DNA from: Arcobacter suis CECT 7833
GTDB lineage: Bacteria > Campylobacterota > Campylobacteria > Campylobacterales > Arcobacteraceae
Assembly: GCF_003544815.1 (NCBI RefSeq)
Contig: NZ_CP032100.1
Coordinates: forward strand, 806,001-870,000
Reading direction: 5' to 3'
DNA length: 64,000 bases
Every line of letters begins with the position of its first letter. The first letter of the stretch is position 1. Shown here piece after piece: positions 1 to 21,351 of this stretch. The notes below the pieces were generated by a model. It saw only the letters and a program-made list of their open reading frames with translations, was not told the origin of the DNA and ran no database searches. Position numbers and translations under genes: made by a program.

Positions 1-3000
1 AGTTCTACAACAAGTAAAGAAATTTTTGTTATGAATGGCGGAAATGATTATGTTTTAGGCGGAGCAGGTGATGATGTCTATGATATGGGAACTGGAGATG
101 ACAGAGTTTCAAATAACTATGGAAGTGATACAATAATCGGTGGAACTGGAGTTGATACTCTTGATATGTGGAATGATATTGGTGCAAACCAAGGAACAAA
201 CATAGTATTTAATTCTATTTTAGCATCTAGTTATACGGGACTTGCAACAGATTTAGGAACATTAACTCTTTCGAATCAAACAGCTGTAATAGAATCTAAA
301 ACTATAAATGGTCTTTCAACTCTAAGTGATGGAGCGTATAATTTTTATAAAATAAAAGATGGACAAGGCGCTTTTGATTATTTATATCAAGATGGAAGTA
401 ATCCAGATTTTGAACAGTTTTTTATGACAGATAATGCTGATATTTTTGTTGGTTCAAATAATAGTGATACTGTTTTTGGATATGGTGGAAATGACACTAT
501 TTGGGCTATGGATGGAAATGATAGTATTTATGCTGGAGATGGAAATGATACTATTTTTGGAGTTAGTGGAAATAACCTTCTAGAAGGTGGTGCTGGAAAT
601 GACCTTATTATAGGTGGAACAGGTAATGACACAATCAGAGGTATTTCAGGAAATAATACTTTATATGGTAAAGCTGGAAATAACGTTATTACAGGTGGAG
701 ATTTTACTGATATTATCTATACTGGAATAGGGCAAGATGTTATTGATGGTGGAACTGGAACTGATACTTTAAGATTTGATGGTGGAACACAAAGAGTTGT
801 AGTAAATTTAGGATCTAATACTTTAACTTATGATGGTGGAAGTACTTTAATTGCAAATAGATTTATCAATAGTTGGCAAAATGCAGGAAGTAATCAAATA
901 GGAACTGTATCAAATATTGAAAATGTTGATGGTACTCAATATAATGACACTATTCGAGGAAATAATTCAACAAACACTATTAAAGCAGGCGCAGGTGATG
1001 ACTATATTTACGCTAGTTCAGGAGATGATAAATATGATGGAGGAGCTAATACTGTAAAAGGTGATAGTGTTGATTATAGTTTAGTTACTACAACTTCTGG
1101 TGTAAAAATAGATATAAATACTCAATCAAATGCTGTATTTACAGTTGGTGGTACAACATATAATCAAACACTTATAGATATAGAAAATATTAAAGGTTCT
1201 AATCAAGATGATCTTATCAGAGGTGGAGTAGGCGCAAATACTATTTATGGAGGAGATGGAGCCGATCAAATCTATGGTACGGGTGGAAATAATAGCCTAT
1301 ATGGTGATGCTGGAGATGATACTATTTATAGTGGAACAGGAAATGACTATATAGATGGAGGAACAGGCAATAATACGGTGAGTTATTCTGACTTTGGAAC
1401 AAGTGTTAAAGTAAATTTAAGTGGAAGTCTACAAGGTACAGTTGCAAATAATACAGGAGTAACTACAGGACTAGTTGATACTTTAGTAAATATTCAAAAT
1501 GTTACAACAGGTGGAGGAAACGATACTATTTGGGCTGGAAGTGGAACAAGTATTATTAAAACAGGTTCTGGAAATGATGTTATTTATGGTGGTTCAGGAA
1601 TTGAAAATATTGATGCTAGTTCAGGAAATGATACTATTTATGCAAGTGCTGGCAATGATATTATAGATGGTGCAGAGGATAGCGATACTGTTGATTATAG
1701 TTCAAGTACGACAGGAATAACTGTAACTTTAGCAAATGATGGAGCTTTAACAAGTGTTAGTCATAATATTTCTGGAGTTTTCATTGATAACTTAACAAAT
1801 ATCGAAGGAATAAAAGGTTCATCTACTGTTTCAAATACTTTAACTGGTAATAATATGAATAACACTTTAATAGGTGGAAATCAAGCAGATGTTATCAAAG
1901 GTGTAAGTGGAAATAACTATTTAAATGGTGGAGCAGGAATAGATACTATTTACGCAGGAACAGGAAGTGATACGATAATAGGTGGAAGTGCCGATGCTAA
2001 TTGGTTGTATTATACTGATGTTTTAGGTGCGAATGTCAATGTTAATTTAAAAGCAGGAATTGCAACTTATGGAACAAGTACAGATACTATTTCTCAAATT
2101 AGACATTTACAAATGGGTAATGGTACAAATACAGTTGAGGGTAATTCAGATGCAAATAGTTTTGTAGGTGGAACGGGAACTGACACTTTAAGTTATAGTG
2201 GATCTTCAAATGCAGTTACATTTAATGTTACAAGTGCAGGTGCTGGAACTTCAACTGGTGATGGTTCAGATACTTTTGTGAACTTTGAAAATTATACACT
2301 TTCAAGTAATGCTGATACTGCAAACTTAAGTGGAGTATTTGGAAGTACAATAGATGGTGGAGCTTTAAGTGATACTGCAAGTTATAGTTCTGTAGCAACT
2401 TCTTTAACAGTTACTGTAGATAGTGGAAACACAAGTGCTACTGTATTTGATGGAACAAAAACTGATACTTTAAAAAATATTGAAAAAATAATTGGTGGAG
2501 ATGGAAATGATACTTTTATCGTTTCAAATGTATCAGGTATTAATACTCTTGATGGAGATGGTGGGACAAACACTTTACAATTAAGTGGAAGTTTAGATTT
2601 ATCAAGTGTGACTTTATTGAATTTTAATAATATCCTTATAGCAAATGGAGATACATTAACTTTAAATGCAGTAGATTTATCTGGTAAAACTATGAATATC
2701 ACAATGAATGGAACAGCTAATTTAGTAATAGTTTCAGATGCAAGTAGTCATGATTTTAGCAATATTACTGTTACAAAAGGAACAGGAAAAGTTACCCTTG
2801 ATGTTAATATAAATAAAGATATAAGTGGAACAAATATACATAATATCATAGATATATTTGATGTAGCTAGTGGTAATAGTTTAACTTTAAGTCATACTCA
2901 ATTTAACACGCATACAGGAATTGGAACAGGAACATTAAAATTAAGTGACACTTCACTTACAGGTGCTCAAATTAAATCTGTGAATGATGCAAGTACCAAT

Positions 3001-5760: not shown

Positions 5761-5790
5761 ACAGTCACTTTTTAGTGATTGTTTCTTTTT
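5759..5790 (+). terminator. Rho-independent terminator after the adhesin gene
   Basis: An 11-bp stem (AAACAGTCACT with AGTGATTGTTT, one G-T pair) with a loop of four T is followed by CTTTTT. It overlaps the adhesin stop codon and could set the adhesin mRNA apart from the secretion genes. Confidence 0.75.
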
Positions 5791-5811
5791 AAAATTAGAA
5801 AAAGGCTTTTA

Positions 5812-6627
5812 GTGAATAAAAATGTTATTAATACTGGTTTTAATAAAGTTATAAAATCAAGACATGGATTTCTTTTATATAATAAAAATGATATATATAT
5901 TGGAAAATCAATAGAAAAATATGGGGAATTTTCACATCTTGAAGCAAAACTTTTTGAGCAAATTTGTAAAGAAGGAGATATTGTAATAGAAGTTGGAGCA
6001 AATATTGGCGCTCACACTGTATATCTTTCAAAACTTGTGGGAAAAGGTGTTGTTATTGCATTTGAACCACAAAGATTGGTTTTCCAAAATCTATGCGCAA
6101 ATCTTGCAATAAACAGTATTTCAAATGTATTTGCTTATCAAGAAGCAGTTTCACATGAAAATGGAAGCATATTAATTCCTGAATATGATTTTACAAAAAA
6201 TAACAACTTTGGTGGAATAAATATAGAAAATACTAAAAATGGAACAACTGTAAATAAGCAAAAATTAGATAATTTTTTGAATAAAATAAACAGATTAAAA
6301 TTACTAAAAATTGATGTTGAAGGTATGGAAATATCAGTAATAAAAGGGGCTAGTGAATTAATTAAAAAGTTTAGACCAATTATTTATGTTGAAAATGATA
6401 GACAAGAACATTCAAAAGAGCTAATAGAGTTATTATGGAGCTTAAATTATAAGATGTATTGGCATTTACCAAGGCTTTACAATAAAAATAATTTTTTCAA
6501 TGAAGAAGAAAATATTTTTGGAAATATAGTCTCTGTAAATATGTTATGTTTACATAAAGATAGTTCTATAGAAATACTAGAAATGGATGAAATAATCAAT
6601 TCAAAGCATCATCCAATGAAAAAATAA
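5812..6627 (+). CDS. FkbM-family SAM-dependent methyltransferase
   Basis: This 271-residue protein has the SAM-binding signature EVGANIGAHT, followed by the FEPQ acidic strand and KIDVEGME, typical of the FkbM methyltransferase family. I place the start at the GTG at 5812, which has AAAGG six bases upstream. An in-frame TTG at 5779 lies inside the preceding terminator hairpin and has no ribosome binding site. FkbM enzymes methylate sugars or other small hydroxyl groups. Beside a TPR/glycosyltransferase-like gene and an adhesin, a role in modifying a surface glycan or the adhesin is possible, but the substrate is unknown. Confidence 0.8.
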   Translation: MNKNVINTGFNKVIKSRHGFLLYNKNDIYIGKSIEKYGEFSHLEAKLFEQICKEGDIVIEVGANIGAHTVYLSKLVGKGVVIAFEPQRLVFQNLCANLAINSISNVFAYQEAVSHENGSILIPEYDFTKNNNFGGINIENTKNGTTVNKQKLDNFLNKINRLKLLKIDVEGMEISVIKGASELIKKFRPIIYVENDRQEHSKELIELLWSLNYKMYWHLPRLYNKNNFFNEEENIFGNIVSVNMLCLHKDSSIEILEMDEIINSKHHPMKK

Positions 6628-6690: not shown

Positions 6691-8478
6691 ATGATAGAAC
6701 AAGAAAAAAAACTTTTTGAACAAGCAGTCGAATTTTTTAATAAAAAAGATTACGATAAATCAAAAACTTTATATGAAGAAATCTTAAAAATAAATCCAAA
6801 GTCTTCTAATATTTATGGAAACTTAGGTGTTATTTATAAAATAAAAGGTGATATCAATACAGCTATAAAATATTATATTACAGCAATCAATTTAAATCCT
6901 AAAAATACTCTTGTATATAATAATTTAGGTAATGCTTTTAAAGAAATAAAAAATTATAAAATGGCTATAAGAGTATATACAGATGCTTTAAAAATAAATC
7001 CAAAAGATTTTAATATGTTTAATAATCTAGGTATAGTTTTTGAATTAATTGGTGATAGCAATAGAGCAATTGAAGCATATAAACAAGCTGTTAAAATAAA
7101 TCCAAAATATGCAAAAGCTATAAATAATATAGGTGTTGTATTATATAAACAAAAAAGATATAAAGAATCAGCTCAGATTTTTGAAATAGCATTACAATCA
7201 GACTCAGATTATAATGAAGTTTATAGTAATAAAGGCGCTGCTTATAACAAAGCAAAAGATTATGATAAAGCAATAGAATCTTTAGAAATGGCAATTCTTA
7301 AAATGCCAAATCATGGTGGTGCATATACAAATTTAGGAAATGTATATAATAAATTACATGATTATAAAACAGCTGCAAAAATGCATGAAAAATCTATAGA
7401 ATTAGAACCAAATGGTTCAAATGCATATAGTAATGTAGGTACTTCATATAAATATTTAGGATTATCAGATAAAGCTATTACTTCATATAAAAAAGCAATT
7501 GAATTAGATCCAAATTTTGTTAATGCACATTTTGACTTAGCAACTATGTATTTAGCATCTGAAGATTTTAAAAATGGTTGGAAAGAGTATGAGTGGAGAT
7601 TTAGAAAAGAAGAGATGATTCCTCATATCATAAAACACAAAGATATTTTTACTAAACCCTTATTTACAGGAGTTGAAGATATAAAAGGTAAAACTTTATT
7701 ACTTCATTCAGAACAAGGATATGGAGATAGTATTCAATTTATAAGATTTGTCCCACAATTAAAAGAAAAATTTGGATGTAAAATAGCAGTAAAATGTCGA
7801 GAAGGTTTAAAAGAACTATTTAAAACAATTGATGAAATCGATGTAATAGTTGATAGAAGTGAAGAAACACCAGCATTTGATTATCAATTATCAATTATGA
7901 GTATGCCATTTATTTTAGATATGAAAAGTATAGATGAATTACCAAAAAAAATGCCATATTTAAAAGCTATTTTTGATAAAGATTTAGAAATTAAAAAAGA
8001 AAAAGACAAAATTAATATTGGTATTTGTTGGAGTGCTTCACTAACAGGAGAAAGCTATGAAGGAAAAGTATTTGATTTAAAATTCTTTGAACCTTTAATG
8101 AATAATCCAAAAATTAATCTTTACTCTTTACAAGTTGGTGATGGAAGTGAAGATATTAAAAAACTTGGATTTGAAGATAAAATCATTGATTTAACACATA
8201 AATTGACAGATTTTTCAAAAACTGCTTCATTGATTAATGAATTAGATTTAGTTATTTCATCTGATACTGCAGTTGCTCATTTAACAGGTGCATTAAATAA
8301 ACCAGTTTGGATTCCTTTACAAAAAATTCCAGATTGGAGATGGACAAATAAAGGTGAAACTACAAAATGGTATCCTAGTGCAAAACTGTTTAGACAAAAA
8401 ACAGCAAAAGTTTGGGAAAGTGTATTTCAATCTATAAATGCAAAACTTTCAAAACAATATAAAATTAAAATAAATTAA
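6691..8478 (+). CDS. TPR protein with C-terminal glycosyltransferase-9-like domain
   Basis: This 595-residue protein has about eight or nine tetratricopeptide repeats in residues 1-300 (units such as YNNLGNAFKE and AYKQAVKINP). The C-terminal ~260 residues resemble the heptosyltransferase (GT9) fold, with LLHSEQGYGDSIQFIRF and the late motif SSDTAVAHLTGALNKP. GAAGG precedes the ATG. Such TPR-GT9 proteins are often encoded beside large secreted adhesins, where glycosylation or retention of the adhesin has been suggested. That role is inferred here; nothing in the sequence fixes donor or acceptor. Confidence 0.75.
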   Translation: MIEQEKKLFEQAVEFFNKKDYDKSKTLYEEILKINPKSSNIYGNLGVIYKIKGDINTAIKYYITAINLNPKNTLVYNNLGNAFKEIKNYKMAIRVYTDALKINPKDFNMFNNLGIVFELIGDSNRAIEAYKQAVKINPKYAKAINNIGVVLYKQKRYKESAQIFEIALQSDSDYNEVYSNKGAAYNKAKDYDKAIESLEMAILKMPNHGGAYTNLGNVYNKLHDYKTAAKMHEKSIELEPNGSNAYSNVGTSYKYLGLSDKAITSYKKAIELDPNFVNAHFDLATMYLASEDFKNGWKEYEWRFRKEEMIPHIIKHKDIFTKPLFTGVEDIKGKTLLLHSEQGYGDSIQFIRFVPQLKEKFGCKIAVKCREGLKELFKTIDEIDVIVDRSEETPAFDYQLSIMSMPFILDMKSIDELPKKMPYLKAIFDKDLEIKKEKDKINIGICWSASLTGESYEGKVFDLKFFEPLMNNPKINLYSLQVGDGSEDIKKLGFEDKIIDLTHKLTDFSKTASLINELDLVISSDTAVAHLTGALNKPVWIPLQKIPDWRWTNKGETTKWYPSAKLFRQKTAKVWESVFQSINAKLSKQYKIKIN

Positions 8479-8489
8479 TAGGTAACTTT

Positions 8490-10625
8490 TTGCAAATTCA
8501 AGAAAATAGTACTACATCTCAAGAAGAATCAATATTTGAAGATACTACTTTAAATAGAGAAGAATATCCTTTATTATTTACATTAAAGTATATTTTAGAT
8601 TTCTATTTTGGAGAAATATCTTTAAATACAATTATAAGTTTTAGTGCTAAATCAAATAAAGGATTTACACAAGAATTAGCAATTGATGTTGTAAAAGAAG
8701 TTGGTTTTACAGCAGTTTGTAAAGATATGAAAGCTTCAGATATTCCAAATCACTTTTTACCATGTATTGTTTTTGATAAAAATGAAAAACCATATGTTTT
8801 AAAAAGAAAAGGTAAAGAGTGTTTTTTACATGATCCAATTACTAATGGTGAAATAAAAAAAGATAGTAGTTATTTAAAAAACTTTACAAAAGCTATTTTA
8901 GTATTTAGAGACCCTAAAAAAGAAAAAATACTTGATCAAATTAAAGGCAAAGAGTGGTTTTGGAATCCTGTAAAGAAATTTTGGAGAGCATATATAGAAA
9001 TAGGATTTTTAACTTTTTTTATAAATATTTTTGCTCTTGCAGTTCCTTTATTTTCCATGAGTGTATATGATAGAGTTGTTCCAAATAATGCTACAGAAAC
9101 GCTATTTGTACTTGCTAGTGGAGTAATAATTATTCTTTTATTTGATGTATTTTTCAAAAGTGTTAGAAATCATATTATTGAAAAAGTAGGAAAAGAATTA
9201 GGACTTCATTTAGAAGAAGAACTTTTAAAAAGAGTTTTAAGTATTCAATCACAATATGATAGTATGCTTGTTGGAACAAAGGCAAATTTATTTAGAGAAT
9301 TAGCTTTAATCAAAGATTTTTTTGCTACAAAATCTATTGTACAAGTAATAGATTTTCCTTTTTTCTTTATAGCAGTTGCAGTTATATTTATAATTTCACC
9401 AATGATTGCTTTAGTTCCTATTTCTATTGCTATATTAGTACTTATTTTTAATTTCGCAATGCAAGTTCCAATTTCAAATTTAAGTAAAAAGAACATAGAA
9501 AATGTTCAAGCAAAACACTCTTATTTAGTTGAAACTATTCAAGGAAGTGAAATAATAAAACTTTCAAATGCTCGAGCAACAAAACTTTTTAATTGGAGAA
9601 ATATCATCGCTGTAACAGACTCTATTTCTCATAAAATACAATCTTTAAATGTATTTTCAATGAATTTATCTCAAACAGTAATTCAATTTGTTACGCTTTT
9701 AGTTATTATAGTTGGGGTATTTGAAATAAATAACAAAACTTTATCAGTTGGTGGATTAATAGCAGTTACAATTCTTGCAAGTCGTGCAATGGTTCCTGTA
9801 ATTCAAGCTTCAATGATGGCAATAAAGTTAAAAGAGATTAAAGAATCATTAGATAATATAAATGAATTTTGGCATTTACCATTAGAAAATGATAAAAATA
9901 TTGAAATTGGTTTAGGTGAAATAAAAGGAAATATTGAATTTAAAAATGTTGATTTTTATTATAAAAATAGTAAATATGCATCTTTGGAAAATTGTAATAT
10001 AAAAATAAAAGAGGGTGAAAAAGTAGGAATTATCGGACAAACAGGTGCTGGGAAAAGTACTTTTTTACGAATATTAACAGGTCTTGATAGCCCAACAAAA
10101 GGATCAGTTTATTTAGATGGACATGAAATATCTACAATACATCCTGTTGAAATAAGACAAAATATAGGTGTAATGCCCCAAGAACCATTTTTATTTTCTG
10201 GTACATTAAAAGAAAATATTGAATTATCAAGCCCTATTAGTAAAGAAAAAATGATGCAATTAATAAAAATTACTGGCTTAGAAGATTTAGTAAAAAAATC
10301 AGGACAAGGTGATGGTTTACAAGTTGGTGAACGAGGTTGTAATTTATCGGTTGGGCAAAGACATTTAGTCGCACTTGCAAGGGCATTATTAAATAATCCT
10401 CCTATTTTGATTTTAGATGAACCCACAACAGGACTGGATGTAGGTCTTGAAAAATCTTTAATAACACATATGAAACAAGTATTAGATAATAAAACCTTAA
10501 TAGTAATTACACATAGATTTGCTGCCTTAGATTTAGTTGATAGAGTAATCGTTCTAAATCAAGGTAAAATTGTTGCAGATGGTCCAAAAAATGCAGTTTT
10601 AGCCGCATTACAAGAGAAAAAATAA
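8490..10625 (+). CDS. Type I secretion ABC transporter with C39-like domain (LapB-like)
   Basis: The 711-residue protein has three parts. Residues ~15-150 form a peptidase C39-like domain lacking the catalytic Cys, as in the CLD of HlyB and LapB. Residues ~165-470 are a six-helix membrane domain. Residues ~480-705 are an ATPase with Walker A GQTGAGKST, signature LSVGQ and Walker B LILDEP. The start is TTG at 8490, preceded by AATAGGT. It should form the inner-membrane ATPase of the exporter for the adjacent adhesin, recognising an uncleaved C-terminal signal. The HlyD gene follows after one base. Confidence 0.9.
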   Translation: MQIQENSTTSQEESIFEDTTLNREEYPLLFTLKYILDFYFGEISLNTIISFSAKSNKGFTQELAIDVVKEVGFTAVCKDMKASDIPNHFLPCIVFDKNEKPYVLKRKGKECFLHDPITNGEIKKDSSYLKNFTKAILVFRDPKKEKILDQIKGKEWFWNPVKKFWRAYIEIGFLTFFINIFALAVPLFSMSVYDRVVPNNATETLFVLASGVIIILLFDVFFKSVRNHIIEKVGKELGLHLEEELLKRVLSIQSQYDSMLVGTKANLFRELALIKDFFATKSIVQVIDFPFFFIAVAVIFIISPMIALVPISIAILVLIFNFAMQVPISNLSKKNIENVQAKHSYLVETIQGSEIIKLSNARATKLFNWRNIIAVTDSISHKIQSLNVFSMNLSQTVIQFVTLLVIIVGVFEINNKTLSVGGLIAVTILASRAMVPVIQASMMAIKLKEIKESLDNINEFWHLPLENDKNIEIGLGEIKGNIEFKNVDFYYKNSKYASLENCNIKIKEGEKVGIIGQTGAGKSTFLRILTGLDSPTKGSVYLDGHEISTIHPVEIRQNIGVMPQEPFLFSGTLKENIELSSPISKEKMMQLIKITGLEDLVKKSGQGDGLQVGERGCNLSVGQRHLVALARALLNNPPILILDEPTTGLDVGLEKSLITHMKQVLDNKTLIVITHRFAALDLVDRVIVLNQGKIVADGPKNAVLAALQEKK

Positions 10626-10626
10626 T

Positions 10627-11901
10627 ATGAATAATAGATTATTTGAAGAGAAAAATTGGAATTATTACACTACTGTAATTCCAATTATGATATTTTTTAC
10701 GATTTTTTTATCTTGGGCTACTTTTAGTGAAGTGGATGAAGCAATAAAAGGAACAGGAAGAGTAGTTCCTTCTGGTCAAACAAAAGTTATACAAAATCTT
10801 GAAGGTGGAATTATTTCTGCGATTTTAGTAGAAGAAGGAAAAACAGTAAAAAAAGGAGATATTATATATAACCTTTCTAATGCTTTTTTTAGTTCAGAAT
10901 TTGTTACAAAAGAGATTGATTTATTAAGCCTTCAAGCAGTTTTAGTAAGATTAGAAGCTTTAATTGACAATAAAACAACAATTGAATTTCCCGAAGAATT
11001 AAAGAAAAAAATCCCCGATATAATCGAAAATGAAACTAGAATATTTTATGAAGATTTAGAAAATAATCAAAGAAAAGTAGATATAGCAAAAGATCAATAC
11101 AATCAAAAAGATTATAAATTAAGAGAAACAAAAATTAGGTTTAATAATCTTAGTATAGAGTTAAATTTAGCTATGGAAAATATGAAAATATTAGATGAAT
11201 TATTAAATAAAAAAGTAGCTTCTAAAAAAGAGTATATATTAGAATTATCTAAAAAACAAAATATTGTAACTCAAATTGATGAAACAAGAAATAGTATTCC
11301 AATATTACAAGAAGAAATTGAAGAATCAAAAAAGAAAATTGCTTCAGTTGAATCAGAAAATAGAAGTAAACAATTAAGTAAATATTCAGAGATTAAAACA
11401 GAAATTAATAAAGCAATAGAAAAAAACAAAGCAAATGTTGATAGAGAACAAAGAAAATCAGTAATTTCACCTGTAAATGGAATTATTAATAAACTCTATT
11501 TTTATACAGAAGGTGGAATTGTAAAACCTGGTGATAAAATGGCTGAAATTACTCCCATAGAAGATTCCTTAACAATAGAAGCAAAAATCAAGAGTTCAGA
11601 TAGAGCATTTATTTGGGAAGGTCAAGATGTATCTGTTGAAATTACAGCTTATGATTTTTCTAAATATGGTTTATTAAATGGAAAATTAATTTCTATTTCT
11701 CCTGATAGCTTTGAAGATAGAAATGGTTCAATTTTTTATATAGCAAAAATAAAAGCAGATGTAAACCAATTTGCACCAGATCTTCCGATTTTACCAGGGA
11801 TGGTTGCAAATGTTAATATTTTGACAGGAAAAAAGACAGTACTTCAATATATAATTAAACCACTTAAAGATATTAGTAAAAATGCTTTAAGTGAACAATA
11901 A
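10627..11901 (+). CDS. HlyD/LapC-family periplasmic adaptor of type I secretion
   Basis: The 424-residue protein has one N-terminal membrane helix (residues ~17-33, PIMIFFTIFLSWATF), then a lipoyl-like half (EGGIISAILVEEGKTVKKGD), a long coiled coil (~85-270), the returning lipoyl half (VISPVNGIINKLYFYTEGG) and a β-barrel domain. It bridges the inner-membrane ABC transporter and the outer-membrane TolC-like channel. One base separates it from the ABC gene, so the two are co-transcribed. Confidence 0.92.
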   Translation: MNNRLFEEKNWNYYTTVIPIMIFFTIFLSWATFSEVDEAIKGTGRVVPSGQTKVIQNLEGGIISAILVEEGKTVKKGDIIYNLSNAFFSSEFVTKEIDLLSLQAVLVRLEALIDNKTTIEFPEELKKKIPDIIENETRIFYEDLENNQRKVDIAKDQYNQKDYKLRETKIRFNNLSIELNLAMENMKILDELLNKKVASKKEYILELSKKQNIVTQIDETRNSIPILQEEIEESKKKIASVESENRSKQLSKYSEIKTEINKAIEKNKANVDREQRKSVISPVNGIINKLYFYTEGGIVKPGDKMAEITPIEDSLTIEAKIKSSDRAFIWEGQDVSVEITAYDFSKYGLLNGKLISISPDSFEDRNGSIFYIAKIKADVNQFAPDLPILPGMVANVNILTGKKTVLQYIIKPLKDISKNALSEQ

Positions 11902-11989: not shown

Positions 11990-12940
11990 GTGTTTAGTTT
12001 TATAAAAGCTATCCAAAACTTACTTAGCGAATTAAAAAAGAGAAAAGGATTGTGGTTTACAATCTTAAGTGTTTTGTCTATATTTGGAATCTCCCTTTCT
12101 ATGTATTTACTCACAACAATGACAGCTAAAATCGCTGAAGAAGTTTATGCTAATATGTCAATAAATTATAAAAGTAATTTAGAATATAAGTTTGAGGATA
12201 AACAAAAAGAGTTTAGAAAAATTGTTTTAGGATTAAAAGCAAATGATTATTTTAAAAATAATTTAAGTAACAAACAAGTTATAGATTCAATTATTGATGT
12301 TTATAATAAAAGTCTAATAGAATCAGGTTTTGATACTATTTCTATGACTTTTTATCCAACAGTTTATCAAACAAGTCAACATCGTACTATTATAAATAGT
12401 GTAATAAATAGAAAAATTACATCATTTGGTATTGAAGTTTTACCAGATGGTCCAAACATAGTTTATATTGAACCTATTATGTCAGGAGAAAATGTATTAG
12501 GTGTTCTTGAAGTAAAAGAGAGTTTAGTAAATTTAAAAAAAGATTTAGAAAGAGATAAACACAGTATATTTTTAGTATTAATACAAGAAAAAATGATGTC
12601 TCAGTTAGCAATTGATGCTAAAAATGGTAGATATCGTCCTGTTGTAGATGATTTAAGAGTAGAAGAACAAAAATATGATGGCTCATTTTTCGCAAATATT
12701 ATAGAAGAGGGAATAGAAGGCTTTAAAGAGCTAAAAGCTAAAGGTTATGTTGTTAATAAAGAGTATTTCAAAACATATAATGAAATGGTAGATGTAAATG
12801 GTGTTACTATTGGATATATCTTACTTGGAGAGAAAGTTAAAGGTAATGATGGTTTTGTAAATATTGTTGATAATATGACTAAATCAGTTACGATGATAGC
12901 ATTAGGTTTAGTAATATCAATATTATTATTTATGTTTTAA
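11990..12940 (+). CDS. Two-helix membrane protein with extracytoplasmic sensor-like domain
   Basis: The 316-residue protein starts at GTG 11990, with AAAAGGA just upstream. A membrane helix (~22-45) is followed by ~240 residues that look like a Cache/PDC-type extracytoplasmic sensor (YIEPIMSGENVLGVLEVKE resembles the C-terminal strand of such domains), then a last helix (~296-316) that ends the protein. There is no HAMP, kinase, GGDEF or methyl-accepting output domain, so any signal must pass to a partner. Nine bases separate it from the MotA-like gene, the obvious candidate. I do not recognise a named family. Confidence 0.65.
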   Translation: MFSFIKAIQNLLSELKKRKGLWFTILSVLSIFGISLSMYLLTTMTAKIAEEVYANMSINYKSNLEYKFEDKQKEFRKIVLGLKANDYFKNNLSNKQVIDSIIDVYNKSLIESGFDTISMTFYPTVYQTSQHRTIINSVINRKITSFGIEVLPDGPNIVYIEPIMSGENVLGVLEVKESLVNLKKDLERDKHSIFLVLIQEKMMSQLAIDAKNGRYRPVVDDLRVEEQKYDGSFFANIIEEGIEGFKELKAKGYVVNKEYFKTYNEMVDVNGVTIGYILLGEKVKGNDGFVNIVDNMTKSVTMIALGLVISILLFMF

Positions 12941-12949
12941 AGGGCAATA

Positions 12950-14080
12950 ATGAGAAGAGTTAAAATATTAAAAATCTTTTTTATTGTATTACTATTTATA
13001 ACATTTATTTTATATGCAAATTTTTCTTTAATAAAAACATTTTTTCTTGCAACATTAACATTTAATGTTCCTATTATTACTATTTTTGTTCTTGCTTTAA
13101 TGGTAATTTATCAATCAGCAATAAAATTAACAATGTTAGCTGGTACTTTTGGAATTTTGGCATATAAATCAGGAAAAAGTTTAGAATTCTATTTAGAAGG
13201 AATTAGTAAAATTATGCCAGCAAGTATTGCTCATATGTTTCAAAGAAGAGCAAAAAAAGGTGTAATACATTTTTCTGAACAAGAAGCAAAAGATGTAACG
13301 GAATGGTTAGAAAATCAATTCTTTAAAGAAAAAGGATATACAGCTTTTTTCGTGGGAACTTCATTAACACTTGGATTACTTGGAACTTTTGCTGGATTAT
13401 TAGTTTCAATTGATGAAATGGGAAAAATTATTTTGTCTTTTGGTGGAGATAATATAGATATGGGTGAGATAATGACAGGATTCTCTGGTCCTTTAAGTGG
13501 TATGGCCATTGGATTTGCTTCTTCTTTATTTGGTGTTGCTTCTGCAATTATATTGAATCTTATGCAATATATTTTAACAAAAAGTCAAGCAGCTTTTTTA
13601 GAAGATGTACAAGATTGGATAAAAGGAAGAATTGTTGAAACACAAGCAATAGACACTATTGAAGAAATGGGTGATATTAAAGGCTTTAATAAAAGTGGTG
13701 CAAATAATATGCAAGCTGCTGGATTTATAGATATTTTTGTGGATACAATAAGTGATTTTACTGACCGAATGGAACATTCAAATCAAGTATCTCAAGATAT
13801 GTTTATGAAAATTGCTAATAAATTAGAACAAACAGTAAGTAAAGCAGACAATGAGTCAATTTTATTAAAAAACTTAATTGAAGTAATGAAAGAATCTAAT
13901 GTTAATCAATATTCTAGTTCAAAACTTATTGAAGAATCTTTGCAAGAAATTTCAACAGTAATTTTATCAGAGCATAAAACTATTAAGAAAAGTTTACTAT
14001 TACAAGAAGAAAATAATAAATTACTTATTCAGTTAGTTAAAAGTTTAGAAAAAGAAAATAATTTAGAAAGTAAGAGATAA
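12950..14080 (+). CDS. MotA/TolQ/ExbB-family proton-channel protein
   Basis: The 376-residue protein has an N-terminal hairpin (residues ~8-70), a cytoplasmic segment, and the two characteristic helices of the family: ~131-154 (GLLGTFAGLLVSI) and ~181-208 (SGPLSGMAIGFASSLFG). The C-terminal ~80 residues are predicted coiled coil (my reading). Family members make pentameric rings around two MotB/TolR/ExbD helices and turn ion flow into motion. AAAGGG precedes the ATG. The MotB-like gene starts three bases after its stop. It is too short and divergent to be the flagellar MotA. Confidence 0.8.
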   Translation: MRRVKILKIFFIVLLFITFILYANFSLIKTFFLATLTFNVPIITIFVLALMVIYQSAIKLTMLAGTFGILAYKSGKSLEFYLEGISKIMPASIAHMFQRRAKKGVIHFSEQEAKDVTEWLENQFFKEKGYTAFFVGTSLTLGLLGTFAGLLVSIDEMGKIILSFGGDNIDMGEIMTGFSGPLSGMAIGFASSLFGVASAIILNLMQYILTKSQAAFLEDVQDWIKGRIVETQAIDTIEEMGDIKGFNKSGANNMQAAGFIDIFVDTISDFTDRMEHSNQVSQDMFMKIANKLEQTVSKADNESILLKNLIEVMKESNVNQYSSSKLIEESLQEISTVILSEHKTIKKSLLLQEENNKLLIQLVKSLEKENNLESKR

Positions 14081-14083
14081 TAT

Positions 14084-14812
14084 ATGGCTTGTAAGTTTGA
14101 AGAAGAATTTAATCCTTGGCCATCATTCGTGGATATTTTCTCTTCGGTTATTTTAGTATTATTATTGTTTTTATTAGTTGTTCTTGCAAATTTAGGATAT
14201 TATGCACAATTTAAATATAAAGTATCATTTACAGGTTCAGTTTCGTCTAGTGAATTAATTTCAAATACAACTAATCCACCTGCTGTAAGTACAACTAATC
14301 CAAATTCAGACCTTAATATACAAATTATAAATGAACAAAAGCAGATGATTTTAGCTCTTCAACATCAAATTGCATCCCAAGATACTTCAATCAAATCGGC
14401 TAAAGGAACGGATGAAATAGAATCTTCTGGTATAAATGTCGCAGATAAAAAAGAGGATTCAACAAAAATACAAAAAATCCTTTCTACGGATGAATATTTA
14501 GTAATAACATATAAAGCAGATGAGTTTTTTGTTGATGATGTTGCTTCTAAACAAATAAAAGATTTTTTAAACAAAGCAAAAAATAAATATTCTAATCATC
14601 AAGTTAATATTTATTCATCAGATATAAAAGATCAATTAAGTGCAACTATTTCTAAACAAATTTCATTAGCAAGAACAATGAGTGTTAGAAATTTAATAAG
14701 AAAATTTGGTTATGAAAAGAAAGATATAAAAATTGATTTAACAAGTAATCCCGAATTAAAAGAATCTGTAGATGCCACAAATGGCTATTTAGTAATTAAA
14801 ATAGTAAAGTAG
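14084..14812 (+). CDS. MotB/OmpA-like partner of the MotA-like protein
   Basis: This 242-residue protein has a short cytoplasmic N-terminus and a single helix (~15-40). An Asp at residue 17 (WPSFVDIFSS) sits where MotB, TolR and ExbD carry the proton-binding Asp. After a flexible linker, residues ~130-242 resemble a divergent OmpA-like peptidoglycan-binding domain (SLARTMSVRNLIRKFG matches its RAxxVxxYL helix). Together with the preceding gene it would form a cell-wall-anchored, ion-driven stator unit. The OmpA assignment is weaker than the membrane part. Confidence 0.72.
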   Translation: MACKFEEEFNPWPSFVDIFSSVILVLLLFLLVVLANLGYYAQFKYKVSFTGSVSSSELISNTTNPPAVSTTNPNSDLNIQIINEQKQMILALQHQIASQDTSIKSAKGTDEIESSGINVADKKEDSTKIQKILSTDEYLVITYKADEFFVDDVASKQIKDFLNKAKNKYSNHQVNIYSSDIKDQLSATISKQISLARTMSVRNLIRKFGYEKKDIKIDLTSNPELKESVDATNGYLVIKIVK

Positions 14813-14819
14813 AAAATAA

Positions 14820-17270
14820 ATGAAAAAACAATTGATATTTTTGATATTTTTAAGTGTTATTTTAAATGCTAATGAAGAAAAAATAATTGATGAAAATCCA
14901 AGTATTTCAGTATATCTTGATGAAAATCCAAGTAACTCTAAAATAGAAAAAATGAATGACAGTTTTGGTAGGTATGAGAGAGATTTTAATGTAGATATGA
15001 CTAAATATAAAAAAGTATCATTAATGGATGTTGTTCTTGAAACAGTATCAAATAGTGATTTATTAAAAGCAGCAAGAGAACAAGTAATTCAAAGCGAAAT
15101 TAAGTTAAAAGATTCTGTTGCTGGATATTATCCAACTTTGAATTTTGAAGCTGAAAATGGAAGAACACAAGCAACTAACGTAGATAGTGGAACAAAAGAT
15201 ACAAAATTCTTTAGATATTATAATGATAGAAATTATAAATTTATTTTAAGTCAAAATATTTATTCTGGTGGAGAAACTTCTAATACAATTAAAAGTTTAG
15301 AAAAAAAATTAAATGTAGAAAAAAATCAATATCAAATTGTTTTACAAGAACAAATTACAAAAGCAATAAAAGCATATTTTGATGTAGTATTTTCATATAG
15401 AACGGTTTTAGCTAGTGAAAGTAATATGGAGAATTTAAATAGGATTTTAGAAATTGTAACAATAAAATATGATAATGGTGCAGCAACAATTGGCGATTTA
15501 ACAGCAATAAAAGCAAATGTTTCAAATGCACAAACACAACTTACTAAAGTAAAATCTAAACTTACTGAATCAATTCGGTATTATGAATATATTGTAGGTC
15601 AGAATTATATTCAAACCCTTCCTTATGAGAAAAATTTTAATATTAATGTTTCAACTTTTGATTTATTATATGAAAGAGGGATCAAAAGAAATAGTATGAT
15701 TTTAAATTATTATGAATCTCTTGAAGCCGAAAAATTTAATTTAAAATCAAAAAGATCAAGCTTTGCTCCTAAACTAGATTTTGAAGTTTCATTGGATAAT
15801 GTAATGGATAAAGAAGATTACGAAGAAAGAGAACAAGAATTTAATGCACTTTTTAGACTAACTTTTAATTTATATAATGGTGGAAAAGATGAAAATAAAA
15901 TTTTAAGTGCTTTTAGTGTTATTAGAGAACTAAATTTTAAATTAGATGAAGAAAAGAAAAAATTAAAATGGAATATTTCTAAATTATTCACATCAATACA
16001 ATCTACAAATGAATCTTTAAAAAGTAATATTTCTGAAGTTATTTCACTGAGAAAAATGGTTGATGCTTATTGGGAAGAGTTCAATTTAGGACAACAAGAT
16101 TTACAATCTTTATTGCAAGGACATAAACAACTAAATTCAGCAGAAATTGAGTTGATAAAATATGAAAATAGTAATATTACTGATTTCTTTACATTATTAG
16201 GATATACAGGAGATTTATTAGCCTTTTTTGATATGGATCCTGAACATCCGAAATTTATTGATTTTACAAAAAGCAATTACACACAAGATGTATATATTGA
16301 TGATAAATTTTTAACAGAAAAAGAAAAATTAGAAAGAGAAGAACAAAGAAAAAAAGAAGAAGAATTACGAAATTCATTTGCAAATAAAGCTATTAAAGAT
16401 GAGAATATAAATGATTTTACAAAAAGATTTTTAATAACAGATGACAATTTTTATACTATTGAAATAGGAACATTTAATAATCAAAAAGATGCAATAGATT
16501 TTATAAAAAATAAAGAATTAGATAAAAATTCTTTTTCTTATGATTCTATAGAAAATTCAAAAGTTAGTTCTAAAATTGCACATGGAGTTTTTGAAAATAT
16601 TGAAATGGCAAAAGCTGAAATAGATAAGTTATCAAAAAATAACAGCCAAAAAACTCTTGTTATAAAAAAAGTGAAAGATATTAAAAAATCATATAATGAT
16701 TATATGGTTGGATTAAAAGTACAAACACCTGCTCCTGAGATTAAAGTTGTTGAAAAAATTAATACTATTGAAAAAATCAAACAAGAGAAAAAAATAGAAG
16801 AGTTCCAATTTAATGAAACAATAAAAAATACTTTTATAAATTCAAATCCAGAAGCTTATACTATTAATGTAACATCATTTAATAATAAAAAAGAACTAGA
16901 AAAAATTCTAACTGAAAATCCAAATTTATATGAAAATTCTTTTTCATATAATTATTCAAATGGTACAAACTTAATTAGATGGAATTATGGAATTTATAAT
17001 ACATACGAAGAAGCACAAAAAGCAATTGAAGAATTGAATAAAATAGGTGCTCCTTATTATCCTGTTATTCAGAAAGTTTCAAAAGAGCAAGAATTGTATA
17101 ATTTAAATATAACACAAAATACAAATGAACCAAAAAAAGAACCAGAATTTGAATACATAAATGAAACTTCTAAAATGGAATATAAAGAGCCTACACAAGA
17201 AGAAACAGAAAAAAAAATAGACTCAAATTCTGTAAAAGAAAAATTTCTACTTTTGGAAAAAGTTAAATAA
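14820..17270 (+). CDS. TolC-like outer-membrane efflux protein with C-terminal SPOR-like repeats
   Basis: The 816-residue protein has a signal peptide (~1-17), a TolC/OEP domain (~60-470; VLETVSNSDLLKAA, SAGYYPTL-type and NLYNGG motifs, duplicated helical hairpins), a Lys/Glu-rich linker, and two SPOR-like units (~535-625 with TIEIGTFNNQKDA, and ~675-745 with TINVTSFNNKKE). TolC family members are usually 430-500 residues, so the extension is the odd part. SPOR domains bind glycan strands lacking stem peptides, so the channel may be tethered to peptidoglycan. Its stop codon overlaps the next start (TAATG). Confidence 0.85.
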   Translation: MKKQLIFLIFLSVILNANEEKIIDENPSISVYLDENPSNSKIEKMNDSFGRYERDFNVDMTKYKKVSLMDVVLETVSNSDLLKAAREQVIQSEIKLKDSVAGYYPTLNFEAENGRTQATNVDSGTKDTKFFRYYNDRNYKFILSQNIYSGGETSNTIKSLEKKLNVEKNQYQIVLQEQITKAIKAYFDVVFSYRTVLASESNMENLNRILEIVTIKYDNGAATIGDLTAIKANVSNAQTQLTKVKSKLTESIRYYEYIVGQNYIQTLPYEKNFNINVSTFDLLYERGIKRNSMILNYYESLEAEKFNLKSKRSSFAPKLDFEVSLDNVMDKEDYEEREQEFNALFRLTFNLYNGGKDENKILSAFSVIRELNFKLDEEKKKLKWNISKLFTSIQSTNESLKSNISEVISLRKMVDAYWEEFNLGQQDLQSLLQGHKQLNSAEIELIKYENSNITDFFTLLGYTGDLLAFFDMDPEHPKFIDFTKSNYTQDVYIDDKFLTEKEKLEREEQRKKEEELRNSFANKAIKDENINDFTKRFLITDDNFYTIEIGTFNNQKDAIDFIKNKELDKNSFSYDSIENSKVSSKIAHGVFENIEMAKAEIDKLSKNNSQKTLVIKKVKDIKKSYNDYMVGLKVQTPAPEIKVVEKINTIEKIKQEKKIEEFQFNETIKNTFINSNPEAYTINVTSFNNKKELEKILTENPNLYENSFSYNYSNGTNLIRWNYGIYNTYEEAQKAIEELNKIGAPYYPVIQKVSKEQELYNLNITQNTNEPKKEPEFEYINETSKMEYKEPTQEETEKKIDSNSVKEKFLLLEKVK

Positions 17271-19447
17271 TGCTAAAAAAAATTAAATTTAGAATAATAA
17301 AAAATATCACGATATTAATATTAATATTTGTTGGTTTTTTATTTTTATTCTTTTGGACATTTTTTTTAGATTTTAAAGAAAAAGCTTTTATAAATGCCAA
17401 AAATAATATTGAATTAAATGTTGATAAATATACTGATAAACTCGAAAGTAAAATTATTTTATTTGATAAAATATCTGTAAATCAATATATTAAAGATATT
17501 AAAAATACTAATTTTATAAGTAATGTAAAAATTAAATACAATAAAATTTTGTTTAATAAAGAAGCTTTGATTTTCCAAACTGATGGTTTTAATGATACTT
17601 CATGGAACCTATCAGATGTAACAACAGATATAAGATTTGGAGAAATTCAAAAAATACAAGGAACATCTTTTTTTGAATTTATACCAGCAAATGATTTTAA
17701 TTCAAATGAAAATTTAATAATCAAATTTCAATTATTCAAAAATAATGAGATTAAAAATTTTATAGTTTCACTTAATTCAAATTTAGTAGATAATAAAGAT
17801 ATTGAAGAAAAACATGAACCATTCTATAGTATTTATGAATACTTCTATAATTTAAAATTAGATAATGTAATAACAAAAGAGCTAACAATTGCTTATATAA
17901 ACTATGCAACAATAGAATATACTATTGATGATTATAATTTAAAAAAAGAGATTTATGATTTTTCAAATAAATTATTTATGTTTATAATAATCTTGTTTTT
18001 TCTAATAGTAATATTAATAGTTTATTATAATAAGTATATAGAAAATAAATATATAACTGAACCAATTAATTATCTTGAAAATCTTGTTTTGGATATGTTA
18101 AATAACAAATTCTCAAATATAGACAATAAAATTCTTAATGAAAATCATGAGTATAAAAATTTGTTAGCAAATATATCAAAATTATCAAACAGAGTAGCAT
18201 CTTTAGTAAATGAATTAAATATTAATAGAGAATCTATGGAAAGAAATTTATTAACTGATAATTTAACAGGATTATATGATAAAAAGATGTTTGATATTGA
18301 TATGAAAAGTATTTTTGTATCATCTTTTGAAGGTTATATCTTTTTATTAAAAATTGCTAAACTGAATCAAATAGAGAGTTTAAATGGCACAGTAAAAACT
18401 GATGATTTTATTTTGTCTTATGTAAATATTATAAATAATATTATTTATTCATACCAAAATGACAAAATGTCTTTTTATAGATTTCATGGAGCAGAATTTA
18501 TAATTTTAGCAAAAGATATGAATTATTTAGAAGCAGTTGATTTTTCAAATAGAGTGATTAATGGATTGCTTACTGAAATATCGAGAAATTATAAATTACC
18601 TGATAATATATTCCATATTGGTGGAACTCCAATTGATAAATATGGAACAATAGATTCAATTTTAAATTTAGTAAATGGGGCATATAAAGAAGCTGTTTTA
18701 AGAGATGAAAATGGTTATGAAATTATTGAAAAAAATAAAATTTCTGAAGAAGTAGAAAAAACAGAAAAAAAAGTTAAATATATAATTGAAAATAATTATT
18801 TTGATATATCGTTTGCTTTTGATAGTTATTCATTTGAAGATGAATTATTAATGAGAGAATTAAAACCAATACTAAAAGATGAAGATGGTAATATTTTGCC
18901 AATAGGTTCATTTATTGCAATTAGCGAGAAGCTAAATTTAAATAAGAATTTTGACGAACAAGTAATCTTAAAAGCTTTTGAATATATTGAGAATAATAAA
19001 ATCGAGTATAAAATTGCAATAAATTTATCAATCAAAACAATATCAGATGATGAATTTATAGAATTTTTAAATAGATTAGTAGATGAAAATAAAAATGTTG
19101 TAAAAAATATTTTATTTAGTATTACATCTTATACTGCTTCTGTTTACAAAAAACAATTTGTTGAATTTGTTAAACAGTTAAACAAATTAAATTTTGAAAT
19201 ATTAATTAAAAGATTTAAAACAAAAGAATATCCACTCGAAGAATTATCAGAAATAAATATTAATTATATAAAAATAGATAAAGACTTAACACAAAATATT
19301 CATAATGATTTAATAAAAAAACATAGAATTAAAAATATTATTGTTTATGCTGAAGTAAATGAGATAAAAATTATAGTTGAAAATGTAGAATCAGATCAAG
19401 ATTATAAATTTTTAAGTAGATTAGATTTGTATGCAGTTAATAGATAA
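17270..19447 (+). CDS. LapD-like c-di-GMP receptor with degenerate GGDEF and EAL domains
   Basis: The 725-residue inner-membrane protein has helix 1 (~12-32), an extracytoplasmic domain (~35-235), helix 2 (~240-260), a HAMP-like linker, a GGDEF-fold domain (~325-490) and an EAL-fold domain (~505-725). The diguanylate cyclase signature reads HGAEF. The EAL metal-binding glutamate motif is absent (the position reads ELLMRELKP). Both domains are therefore probably inactive, as in LapD, which binds c-di-GMP and sequesters the LapG protease. The fold position matches LapD, but the identity is inferred from architecture and context; no lapG-like gene lies in this window. Confidence 0.75.
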   Translation: MLKKIKFRIIKNITILILIFVGFLFLFFWTFFLDFKEKAFINAKNNIELNVDKYTDKLESKIILFDKISVNQYIKDIKNTNFISNVKIKYNKILFNKEALIFQTDGFNDTSWNLSDVTTDIRFGEIQKIQGTSFFEFIPANDFNSNENLIIKFQLFKNNEIKNFIVSLNSNLVDNKDIEEKHEPFYSIYEYFYNLKLDNVITKELTIAYINYATIEYTIDDYNLKKEIYDFSNKLFMFIIILFFLIVILIVYYNKYIENKYITEPINYLENLVLDMLNNKFSNIDNKILNENHEYKNLLANISKLSNRVASLVNELNINRESMERNLLTDNLTGLYDKKMFDIDMKSIFVSSFEGYIFLLKIAKLNQIESLNGTVKTDDFILSYVNIINNIIYSYQNDKMSFYRFHGAEFIILAKDMNYLEAVDFSNRVINGLLTEISRNYKLPDNIFHIGGTPIDKYGTIDSILNLVNGAYKEAVLRDENGYEIIEKNKISEEVEKTEKKVKYIIENNYFDISFAFDSYSFEDELLMRELKPILKDEDGNILPIGSFIAISEKLNLNKNFDEQVILKAFEYIENNKIEYKIAINLSIKTISDDEFIEFLNRLVDENKNVVKNILFSITSYTASVYKKQFVEFVKQLNKLNFEILIKRFKTKEYPLEELSEININYIKIDKDLTQNIHNDLIKKHRIKNIIVYAEVNEIKIIVENVESDQDYKFLSRLDLYAVNR

Positions 19448-19455
19448 GGTTATTT

Positions 19456-20403
19456 ATGAATAAAATTATAGTTGTATTGGTAATGATAATATTTGCAGGA
19501 TGTTCTCAAAAACAAGATATTTTAATTACAAAAAAGGTTTATCCTGATATTTCTAAAAATGCTGTTTTTGATGCTGCAAAAACTCTTTTTACTCTTTCAA
19601 ATAAAGAAAATGGAAATAAATCTTTTATAGTAGATGCATATAGAGATAAACTAGAAGTAAATAAAATAATGTTTGAAGATAATATAATCAAAGTAGATAT
19701 TGTTTTAGATAAATGGATATTAGAATTATATCAAGTAGAAAAAGAAACGAGAGCTAATTTAATTATTATTCGAAGAGATGGCTTAAACAAAGATGATATT
19801 GAATATATAGATGAAAATGCACATAAGCTTTTTTGGGATAGATTAGATTATTTATTAGGTTTAAAAAAAGAGTGGAAAATGTGTAATAGATATTTTTCAT
19901 TTAATTTATTAAATGGTTTTTGTGATAACTATTTTATTACATTTAGTCCAGATGATAGTTATATTCAAAAAAATATTTTAATATCGCAAGAAAATATTAA
20001 TAAAAACACTATTGATACTATAAAAGCAGATATTTATGAAAAGACAGATTTATCTTTGGGTTTAAGTAATAGCGATATTTTTAATCAAAGTGAGAATATA
20101 GAAGATACAAATATTTTATCTCCAGTTATTACTGATGATATTTTTAAAACAGAAGCACAAAAAAAAGAAAAAGTAAAAAAAGTGCAAAACTTAGATACAA
20201 ATGAAAATATTGCTCCACAAGATTTAAAAGATGATAAATTATTGAAAGAAGATAAAGAAATTAATAAATTTAAAGAAGATTTAGAAAATATAATAAATAT
20301 GAGACCTCAAAATGAGAATACTGACTCAAATAAAATTATTTTAGATAGTAATAATTTAAAAGAAAATAGTGAGTTTGATTTGAAATCAAAAGAAAAGAAA
20401 TAA
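19456..20403 (+). CDS. Lipoprotein of unknown function in the secretion operon
   Basis: The 315-residue protein has a lipoprotein signal ending in the lipobox FAGC (Cys at 16). Residues ~25-165 look globular and the C-terminal ~110 residues are charged and low-complexity, probably disordered. AAGG lies upstream of the ATG and the gene begins nine bases after the LapD-like gene. No domain was recognised. Its place in the operon suggests an envelope accessory of the exporter. Confidence 0.7.
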   Translation: MNKIIVVLVMIIFAGCSQKQDILITKKVYPDISKNAVFDAAKTLFTLSNKENGNKSFIVDAYRDKLEVNKIMFEDNIIKVDIVLDKWILELYQVEKETRANLIIIRRDGLNKDDIEYIDENAHKLFWDRLDYLLGLKKEWKMCNRYFSFNLLNGFCDNYFITFSPDDSYIQKNILISQENINKNTIDTIKADIYEKTDLSLGLSNSDIFNQSENIEDTNILSPVITDDIFKTEAQKKEKVKKVQNLDTNENIAPQDLKDDKLLKEDKEINKFKEDLENIINMRPQNENTDSNKIILDSNNLKENSEFDLKSKEKK

Positions 20404-20418
20404 TTTAAAAGGATTTTT

Positions 20419-21351
20419 ATGAAACTAATTATTTATATATTTTTATTTTTTACAACTTTATATGGAGTAACTTTTGAAGAAGCTACTGATAGTTTTAATA
20501 AAAAGAATTATATTGAAGCCTATGATAAATATAGTGAGTTAGCATTAAATGATGATGCAAATGCCCAATATAATATTGCATTGATGAATTATAAAGGATT
20601 AGGTGTTACTAAGAATTATAAGTTAGCTTTTTTTTGGTATGAAAAATCTGCACAAAATGGAAATCCCGCAGCGCAAAATAATTTAGCACATATGTATCAT
20701 TTAGGTGAAGAAGTTAAAAAAGATTTAGAGTTAGCTGAAAAATGGTATAAGCTTTCTGCACAGTCTGGTTATCCTTTTGCTCAACTTAATATAGCAATGT
20801 TATATGATTCAAGTACAAATGAAGAAAAAGTAAAAGAAGCATTTTTTTGGTACGAAAAAGCTTCTTTACAAGGTGTAATTATTGCACAAAATAATTTGGC
20901 AAAAATGTATTATATGGGAAGAGGAACAAAAGTTGACAAAGAAAAAGCACTTTACTGGTTTAGTAAATCAGCAGATGCTTCAAATTCTGTTGCACAAGCT
21001 AATTTAGCAATGATGTATTTAACTGCCGATGGAGTAGAAAAAGATATTCCAAAAGCAATAGAATTACTTACTAAATCAGCAGAACAAAACAACTTATCTT
21101 CAATGATTAAACTTGCTGATTTATATGGAAAAGGGAATGAAACTTCTTTGGATTATAAAAAATCATTTTATTGGTATAACAAAGCTTCTGAATTAAAAAG
21201 TACAACTGCAATTTTTCATGTAGGTTTATATTATTATAATGGATATGGAGTTGAAAAAGATATAAATAAAGGGATTACTTATATCAAAGAAGCAAAAGAC
21301 AAAGGTTATCAAAGAGCTGAAAACTTTTTTAAATTAAATAATATAAAATAA
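20419..21351 (+). CDS. Secreted Sel1-repeat (TPR-like) protein
   Basis: The 310-residue protein has a signal peptide (~1-16) followed by about seven Sel1-like repeats (AQNNLAHMYHLG, AQNNLAKMYYMGRG, AQANLAMMYLT and similar) covering the whole chain. Sel1 repeats are protein-interaction scaffolds; in the periplasm they often organise envelope complexes. AAAGGA precedes the ATG. As the last gene of the locus, ended by a strong hairpin, it may assemble the secretion or motor parts (inference). Confidence 0.8.
   Translation: MKLIIYIFLFFTTLYGVTFEEATDSFNKKNYIEAYDKYSELALNDDANAQYNIALMNYKGLGVTKNYKLAFFWYEKSAQNGNPAAQNNLAHMYHLGEEVKKDLELAEKWYKLSAQSGYPFAQLNIAMLYDSSTNEEKVKEAFFWYEKASLQGVIIAQNNLAKMYYMGRGTKVDKEKALYWFSKSADASNSVAQANLAMMYLTADGVEKDIPKAIELLTKSAEQNNLSSMIKLADLYGKGNETSLDYKKSFYWYNKASELKSTTAIFHVGLYYYNGYGVEKDINKGITYIKEAKDKGYQRAENFFKLNNIK

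Follow-up and report, generated by a model that had tools for sequence, protein, structure and literature searches.

In the adhesin type I secretion system of Salmonella pathogenicity island 4 (SPI4), SiiA and SiiB constitute a proton channel (PMC6272769; PMC12607715). Export of the adhesin SiiE is independent of these two proteins, whereas its retention on the cell surface and its function depend on both; retention rises with the proton motive force (PMF) and falls in the presence of an uncoupler (PMC6272769; PMC12607715). The control of SiiE retention by SiiAB is PMF-dependent and proceeds without proteolysis (PMC6272769), and deletion of siiA and siiB leaves secretion of SiiE into the medium unchanged while lowering invasion (PMC12607715). 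Here we describe a locus of Arcobacter suis CECT 7833 in which, as in SPI4, a MotA/MotB-like pair is embedded in an adhesin type I secretion operon. The window analysed, 64,000 nucleotides long, spans positions 806001-870000 of the complete 2.64 Mb chromosome of this member of the Arcobacteraceae. Three consecutive genes of the operon, hereinafter the triad, encode a two-helix sensor (Sens; 11990..12940 of the window, GTG start), a MotA/TolQ/ZorA-like stator subunit (12950..14080) and a MotB/SiiA-like stator subunit (14084..14812), and are followed by the gene for a TolC-type outer-membrane channel (14820..17270), all on the + strand. The positions of these open reading frames (ORFs), and the gaps of 9, 3 and 7 bases that separate them, agree with an earlier note on this DNA. 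By analogy with SiiAB, we read the triad, with moderate confidence, as a sensor-gated, proton-driven retention motor for a giant adhesin.

The MotA-like protein is easy to overlook because the copy in the window matches the Pfam family MotA_ExbB with an E value of only 0.22; a scan of the genome with this profile found six other proteins and missed the one in the window. The MotB-like protein, taken alone, matches OmpA similarly weakly (E 0.085). Among the members of the MotA-like family, 25 of 41 match MotA_ExbB (best E value 3.9e-6), but the best library profiles are those of ZorA, which are matched by up to 34 of the 41 (best 4.5e-18); ZorB profiles are matched by 13 of the 48 MotB-like relatives. 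When the PDB was searched by sequence profile, none of the MotA-, MotB- and Sens-type families produced a meaningful direct match, and the many hits of the MotA-like family were coiled coils fitting its tail. The two stator proteins were folded as a single read-through chain, which is possible because the genes share a frame and lie three bases apart (mean predicted local distance difference test score, pLDDT, of 70; predicted template modelling score, pTM, of 0.41). In this model, the MotA-like protein, in which hydropathy indicates four membrane segments and which ends in a short cytoplasmic coiled tail, resembles TolQ, ZorA and ExbB with Z scores of 11-12 over approximately 190 residues (12.2 for ZorA, PDB 8vvn). 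The MotB-like protein, with one membrane segment by hydropathy, is modelled as a single helix that begins near Asp17, a linker of low confidence and a folded periplasmic domain of the peptidoglycan-binding type. The top PDB match of this domain is SiiA (6qvp; Z 13.7, 2.1 A, 100 of 104 residues, 21% identity), and generic OmpA-like domains trail behind (Z 11.5 or less). The view, taken in the earlier note, that stator pairs do not belong to type I secretion holds only in part, given that SiiA and SiiB of SPI4 have been published (PMC6272769; PMC12607715) and that SiiA is the closest fold found here.

Asp17 of the MotB-like protein, which had been placed at the proton-binding position, opens the lone membrane helix and does not vary among the 59 complete relatives; the MotA-like protein keeps Thr146, located in its third helix, in 41 of 41 sequences, with P181, M185 and S192 invariant as well. 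R197 of the MotB-like protein is also invariant; SiiA, which binds peptidoglycan through conserved arginines, was not aligned by the profile searches. As judged from sequence profiles and predicted folds, the two proteins belong to the superfamily of 5:2 proton-driven stators that includes MotAB, TolQR, ExbBD and ZorAB, and the invariance of Asp17 and Thr146 makes protons the likely energy source of the pair, as had been proposed. With TolQR and ExbBD the pair shares the MotA-like fold and one pore threonine, but it differs from them in the four membrane segments, in a methionine that replaces the second pore threonine and in the OmpA/SiiA-type periplasmic domain. The similarity to SiiAB extends to the aspartate-bearing lone helix, the disordered linker, the SiiA-fold periplasmic domain and the absence of LapG from the operon. 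The Arcobacter locus differs in that a dCache sensor is present in every locus of this type, in that its own clade adds LapD and a TolC with SPOR domains, and in that the adhesin is an RTX protein of 10,734 amino acids (aa) as opposed to the BIg-repeat adhesin of Salmonella.

The third component of the triad, Sens, is predicted with good confidence (pLDDT 84) to consist of a Cache/PAS-type sensor domain flanked by two helices, in line with the two membrane segments indicated by hydropathy. Its Foldseek matches are ligand-binding domains of chemoreceptors and kinases (Tlp3 at E 2.2e-5), a second structure comparison gave Z scores of 10-12.6, and the Pfam dCache_3 profile is matched by 26 of 53 relatives (best E value 2.1e-9). 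The nearest sequences outside the family, at 143 bits or less, are domains of large receptor proteins from the same phylum, and the two top matches among these are methyl-accepting chemotaxis proteins (MCPs) whose signalling hairpin can be read from the sequence. Although Sens aligns with the ligand-binding domains of the dCache MCPs of Campylobacterota in both sequence and fold, it lacks the HAMP domain and the signalling hairpin: all 53 aligned relatives stop at the same point inside the second membrane helix and carry no output domain. Sequence comparison and modelling show Sens to be made up solely of two membrane helices and a dCache domain of the chemoreceptor type. Among 44 diverse sequences, mean pairwise identity is 48% and 57% in the two helices and 26% in the periplasmic domain, suggesting that the partner of Sens within the membrane is constant, whereas the ligand or other input outside varies. 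Five of the 53 Sens proteins match Pfam MotA_ExbB weakly (best E value 9.8e-5), and the conserved motif ALGLVISILLF in the C-terminal helix could be a mimic of a stator helix or a chance resemblance.

To delineate the spread of the triad, we scanned GTDB genomes with short conserved patterns of the MotA-like protein, a procedure that leaves room for more distant relatives outside Campylobacterota. All 60 loci with a MotA-like relative came from this phylum; among named relatives, Aliarcobacter and Arcobacter caeni are the nearest in which the system occurs. Sens is encoded in 60 of the 60 loci fetched and the MotB-like protein in 59, the contig of the remaining locus ending inside the MotA-like gene; such recurrence excludes a chance grouping of the three genes. 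Among the 25 loci with at least 9 kb of sequence on both sides, TolC adjoins the triad in every case and LapB or LapC lies within 10 kb in 20; the other five contain TolC together with an adhesin-like ORF or LapD. The linkage to secretion genes anticipated in the earlier note is therefore borne out, and homologues are not, as a rule, found away from such loci. Collectively, the profiles, the folds and the recurrence support the view that a stator-like pair and a sensor reside within an adhesin type I secretion operon. Furthermore, in 397 genomes drawn evenly across the phylum, 28 encode the MotA-like protein and the same 28 encode full-length Sens (split over two contigs in one of them), with no orphan of either kind and a score gap that separates Sens from everything else.

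At a finer scale the distribution is patchy: within the genus of the window, the triad was found in only 4 of 30 other genomes. A search of plasmids yielded a single Arcobacter plasmid, that of Arcobacter sp. AZ-2023 (CP146529.1, 61531-94592; locus L126), which bears the whole operon with IS3 transposases and restriction genes alongside; in this copy, the genes for the ABC exporter and LapD are each annotated in two pieces, which might reflect a frameshift or decay. The sparse occurrence in the genus together with the plasmid copy suggests that the locus is probably mobile as a block. Divergence is correlated among all parts of the locus (r 0.88-0.98), and because the entire operon moves as a unit, the distance correlations cannot set Sens and the MotA-like protein apart from the rest; we accordingly discarded co-divergence as a specific tie between these two.

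Whether Sens is a part of the motor at all is the point on which an alternative survives best. Sens could instead belong to the exporter as an independent periplasmic factor, such as a scaffold with a degenerate, non-ligand-binding receptor fold; the low conservation of its sensor domain (26% identity), in which no ligand-binding motif was identified, fits this possibility, as do three Sulfurospirillum-type loci (L082, L084 and L086) in which Sens is encoded at the same locus but at least three genes downstream from those of the stator. Given that Sens and the MotA-like protein co-occur perfectly at the genome level and are adjacent in nearly all other loci, and that the conserved membrane helices indicate a partner in the membrane, we regard this alternative as unlikely, albeit worth keeping in view.

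The operon has much in common with the Lap system of Pseudomonas (LapA/B/C/D/E/G), namely an LssB-type ABC exporter, HlyD, TolC, a LapD homologue and a giant RTX adhesin, but it differs from that system in the addition of the stator pair and the sensor and in the location of LapG outside the operon. The LapD-like protein (17270..19447; NCBIfam LapD, E 9.2e-37, below the cut-off) is a putative receptor of cyclic di-GMP (c-di-GMP) with degenerate GGDEF and EAL domains; in an alignment, it shares a periplasmic tryptophan with the other LapD of the genome, which is linked to LapG. No LapG gene is present in the adhesin operon; the LapG homologues of the genome are encoded at 350 and 700 kb. The second LapD homologue (698786-702130 on the chromosome; L007 and L030) adjoins the LapG at approximately 700 kb, with no stator pair, and appears to represent a separate Lap-type switch. 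LapG is found genus-wide regardless of the presence of the triad, and a LapG search gave no match in two genomes of 99-100% completeness (G376 and G358) that encode both the triad and LapD. No AAG motif of the LapG-type site occurs in the adhesin before residue 577, although such sites may vary. Taken together with the analogy to SiiAB, the lack of LapG in the operon, the lack of an early AAG motif, the failure of LapG to track the triad and the two genomes with LapD and the triad without LapG make retention by a proton motor the most economical explanation. From the sequence data, LapD may either feed c-di-GMP signals to the motor or still bind a LapG encoded elsewhere.

LapD is adjacent to the triad in only one clade of the tree, which includes the window; the members of this clade scored as lacking LapD are on contigs that end too early to show it. 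In the clades without adjacent LapD (L062, L063, L065, L082, L086), the MotA-like protein is mostly 419-855 aa long, with long predicted coiled cytoplasmic tails as in ZorA. We considered a link between LapD and a short MotA-like tail and rejected it: all 24 testable loci with adjacent LapD belong to the one clade (MotA-like proteins of 358-393 aa, compared with mostly 419-855 aa in other clades), so that the tree records one event and not a repeated correlation.

Under the retention reading, the following mechanism can be proposed. The MotA-like and MotB-like proteins would assemble into a MotA5:MotB2 channel, and the periplasmic domain of the latter would hold on to the cell wall close to the conduit formed by LapB, LapC and TolC. 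The flow of protons would then drive a movement that either keeps the half-exported adhesin anchored in the channel or releases it, in line with the proposal made for SiiAB and SiiE; the suggestion of the earlier note that proton flow moves or locks the exporter is likewise plausible by analogy with the control of SiiE retention by SiiAB. Sens, lacking a cytoplasmic output, might relay ligand binding to the stator via contacts between membrane helices, and in the clade of the window the LapD-like c-di-GMP receptor would contribute an internal signal. In its full form, this is a three-part ligand-gated proton motor, in which a chemoreceptor domain minus its signalling half steers a stator through helix contacts and so tunes the stay of a giant adhesin on the cell; we put this specific version forward tentatively, as a possibility somewhat short of even.

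Several points weigh against this interpretation. The second pore threonine of TolQ and ExbB is replaced by the invariant Met185 in the MotA-like protein, so that proton use may differ. The quality of the stator model is modest, and low in the linker and the tail. We infer channel activity, stoichiometry and the contact between Sens and the stator from sequence and analogy, and the conserved linkage indicates a shared process but not the direction of an effect. The comparison with SiiAB covers the fold of SiiA. To our knowledge, no Sens-like sensor has been described in Salmonella.

The stator pair might, alternatively, power export itself, with proton flow pushing or pulling a protein of more than 10,000 residues, or opening the TolC end, in place of a role in retention. 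The size of the substrate (10,734 aa) and the position of the pair next to TolC in every locus with full flanks are compatible with this idea, and the related motors TolQR, ExbBD and GldLM perform mechanical work across the envelope (PMC12204202). Deletion of siiA and siiB, however, spares SiiE secretion into the medium while invasion drops (PMC12607715), and giant adhesins such as LapA are exported with no pair of this kind, so we hold a primary role in export to be rather improbable. Less plausible still is that the triad reports contact with the wall or a surface, the MotB-like protein feeling peptidoglycan tension and Sens a ligand, with the proton leak serving as the signal to LapD or to the cell. 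Such a role would make sense of the peptidoglycan-binding-type fold, the SPOR domains of TolC, the inclusion of a sensor in the set and the LapD homologue in the operon, but many triad loci have neither LapD nor another recognised downstream reader, and Sens has no output domain.

Finally, a Zorya-like phage-defence motor lying in the operon by chance is hardly credible: although ZorA and ZorB are the closest library profiles of the pair and some relatives possess long cytoplasmic tails resembling that of ZorA (proteins of up to 855 aa), adhesin secretion genes are linked in every full-flank locus with locus-wide co-divergence, type I secretion genes flank the pair on both sides, no other Zorya parts were matched among the operon proteins scanned, and the periplasmic domain is nearest to SiiA. 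The pair of the window thus shares with ZorAB the nearest profiles and a similar MotA-like fold, with long tails in some relatives, and differs in its neighbours, in the affinity of its periplasmic domain and in its short tail.

Read along the + strand, the series of genes begins with the RTX giant adhesin, the C-terminal part of which occupies 31..5760 of the window (hemolysin-type calcium-binding repeats, HemolysinCabind, E 9.7e-67); the complete ORF extends over 779556-811760 of the chromosome and starts upstream of the window. It is followed by an FkbM-family methyltransferase (5779..6627; TIGR01444, 5.5e-29), which is present again in many related loci, a TPR protein with a glycosyltransferase-9-like C-terminus (6691..8478), the LapB/LssB-type ABC exporter (8490..10625; TIGR03375, 3.6e-218, above the cut-off) and the LapC/HlyD periplasmic adaptor (10627..11901; TIGR01843, 2.6e-101, above the cut-off). 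The gap of 88 bases between the HlyD and Sens genes contains no terminator-like site; a promoter scan was uninformative, with 23 sites found and 22.9 expected. Beyond the triad, the TolC-type protein (OEP, 8.7e-34) carries two stretches of C-terminal SPOR domains (1.7e-8), and its gene shares base 17270 with that of the LapD-like protein. In the LapD-bearing clade (the window and L034-L061, L091, L092), the TolC-type protein is 743-1388 aa long where complete, compared with 383-591 aa in most other loci; this enlargement, with its SPOR domains, suggests that the exporter is anchored to the bare septal cell wall. The conserved gene order is completed by a lipoprotein-like protein of the same clade to which no function was assigned (19456..20403) and a Sel1-repeat protein (20419..21351; PF08238, 1.5e-61). 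Farther downstream (28615-31053, + strand), an ORF of 812 aa has dCache_1 as its sole Pfam match (E 5.9e-11, just under the curated cut-off) and no recognised output domain.

A stator pair in an adhesin exporter is already known from SiiAB. What appears to be new is that a sensor is the constant third component, that the system is spread through a phylum and that it is combined with LapD and a TolC bearing SPOR domains, none of which we found in the literature searched. Papers on BapP of P. tunicata and on the Dvh operon of D. vulgaris, in which three unnamed genes (DVU1014-DVU1016) lie between those for TolC and the ABC exporter, make no mention of a stator pair, and a term search of a 2025 survey of stator evolution did not return SiiAB.

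According to a 2025 review, it is still unclear how SiiAB makes use of the PMF (PMC12607715). The loci described here represent a second, much wider lineage of adhesin-linked proton-channel pairs, in environmental bacteria amenable to laboratory work, and in Sens they supply a partner that might account for the stimulus to which the channel responds. Clades that have LapD and those that lack it form a natural experiment for comparing control by c-di-GMP with control by the sensor. If the stator is indeed gated by Sens, a receptor would act directly on a motor, and one of the most common bacterial sensor domains would have a new use; the link from sensor to motor would, if true, need neither chemotaxis proteins nor phosphorylation nor a second messenger.

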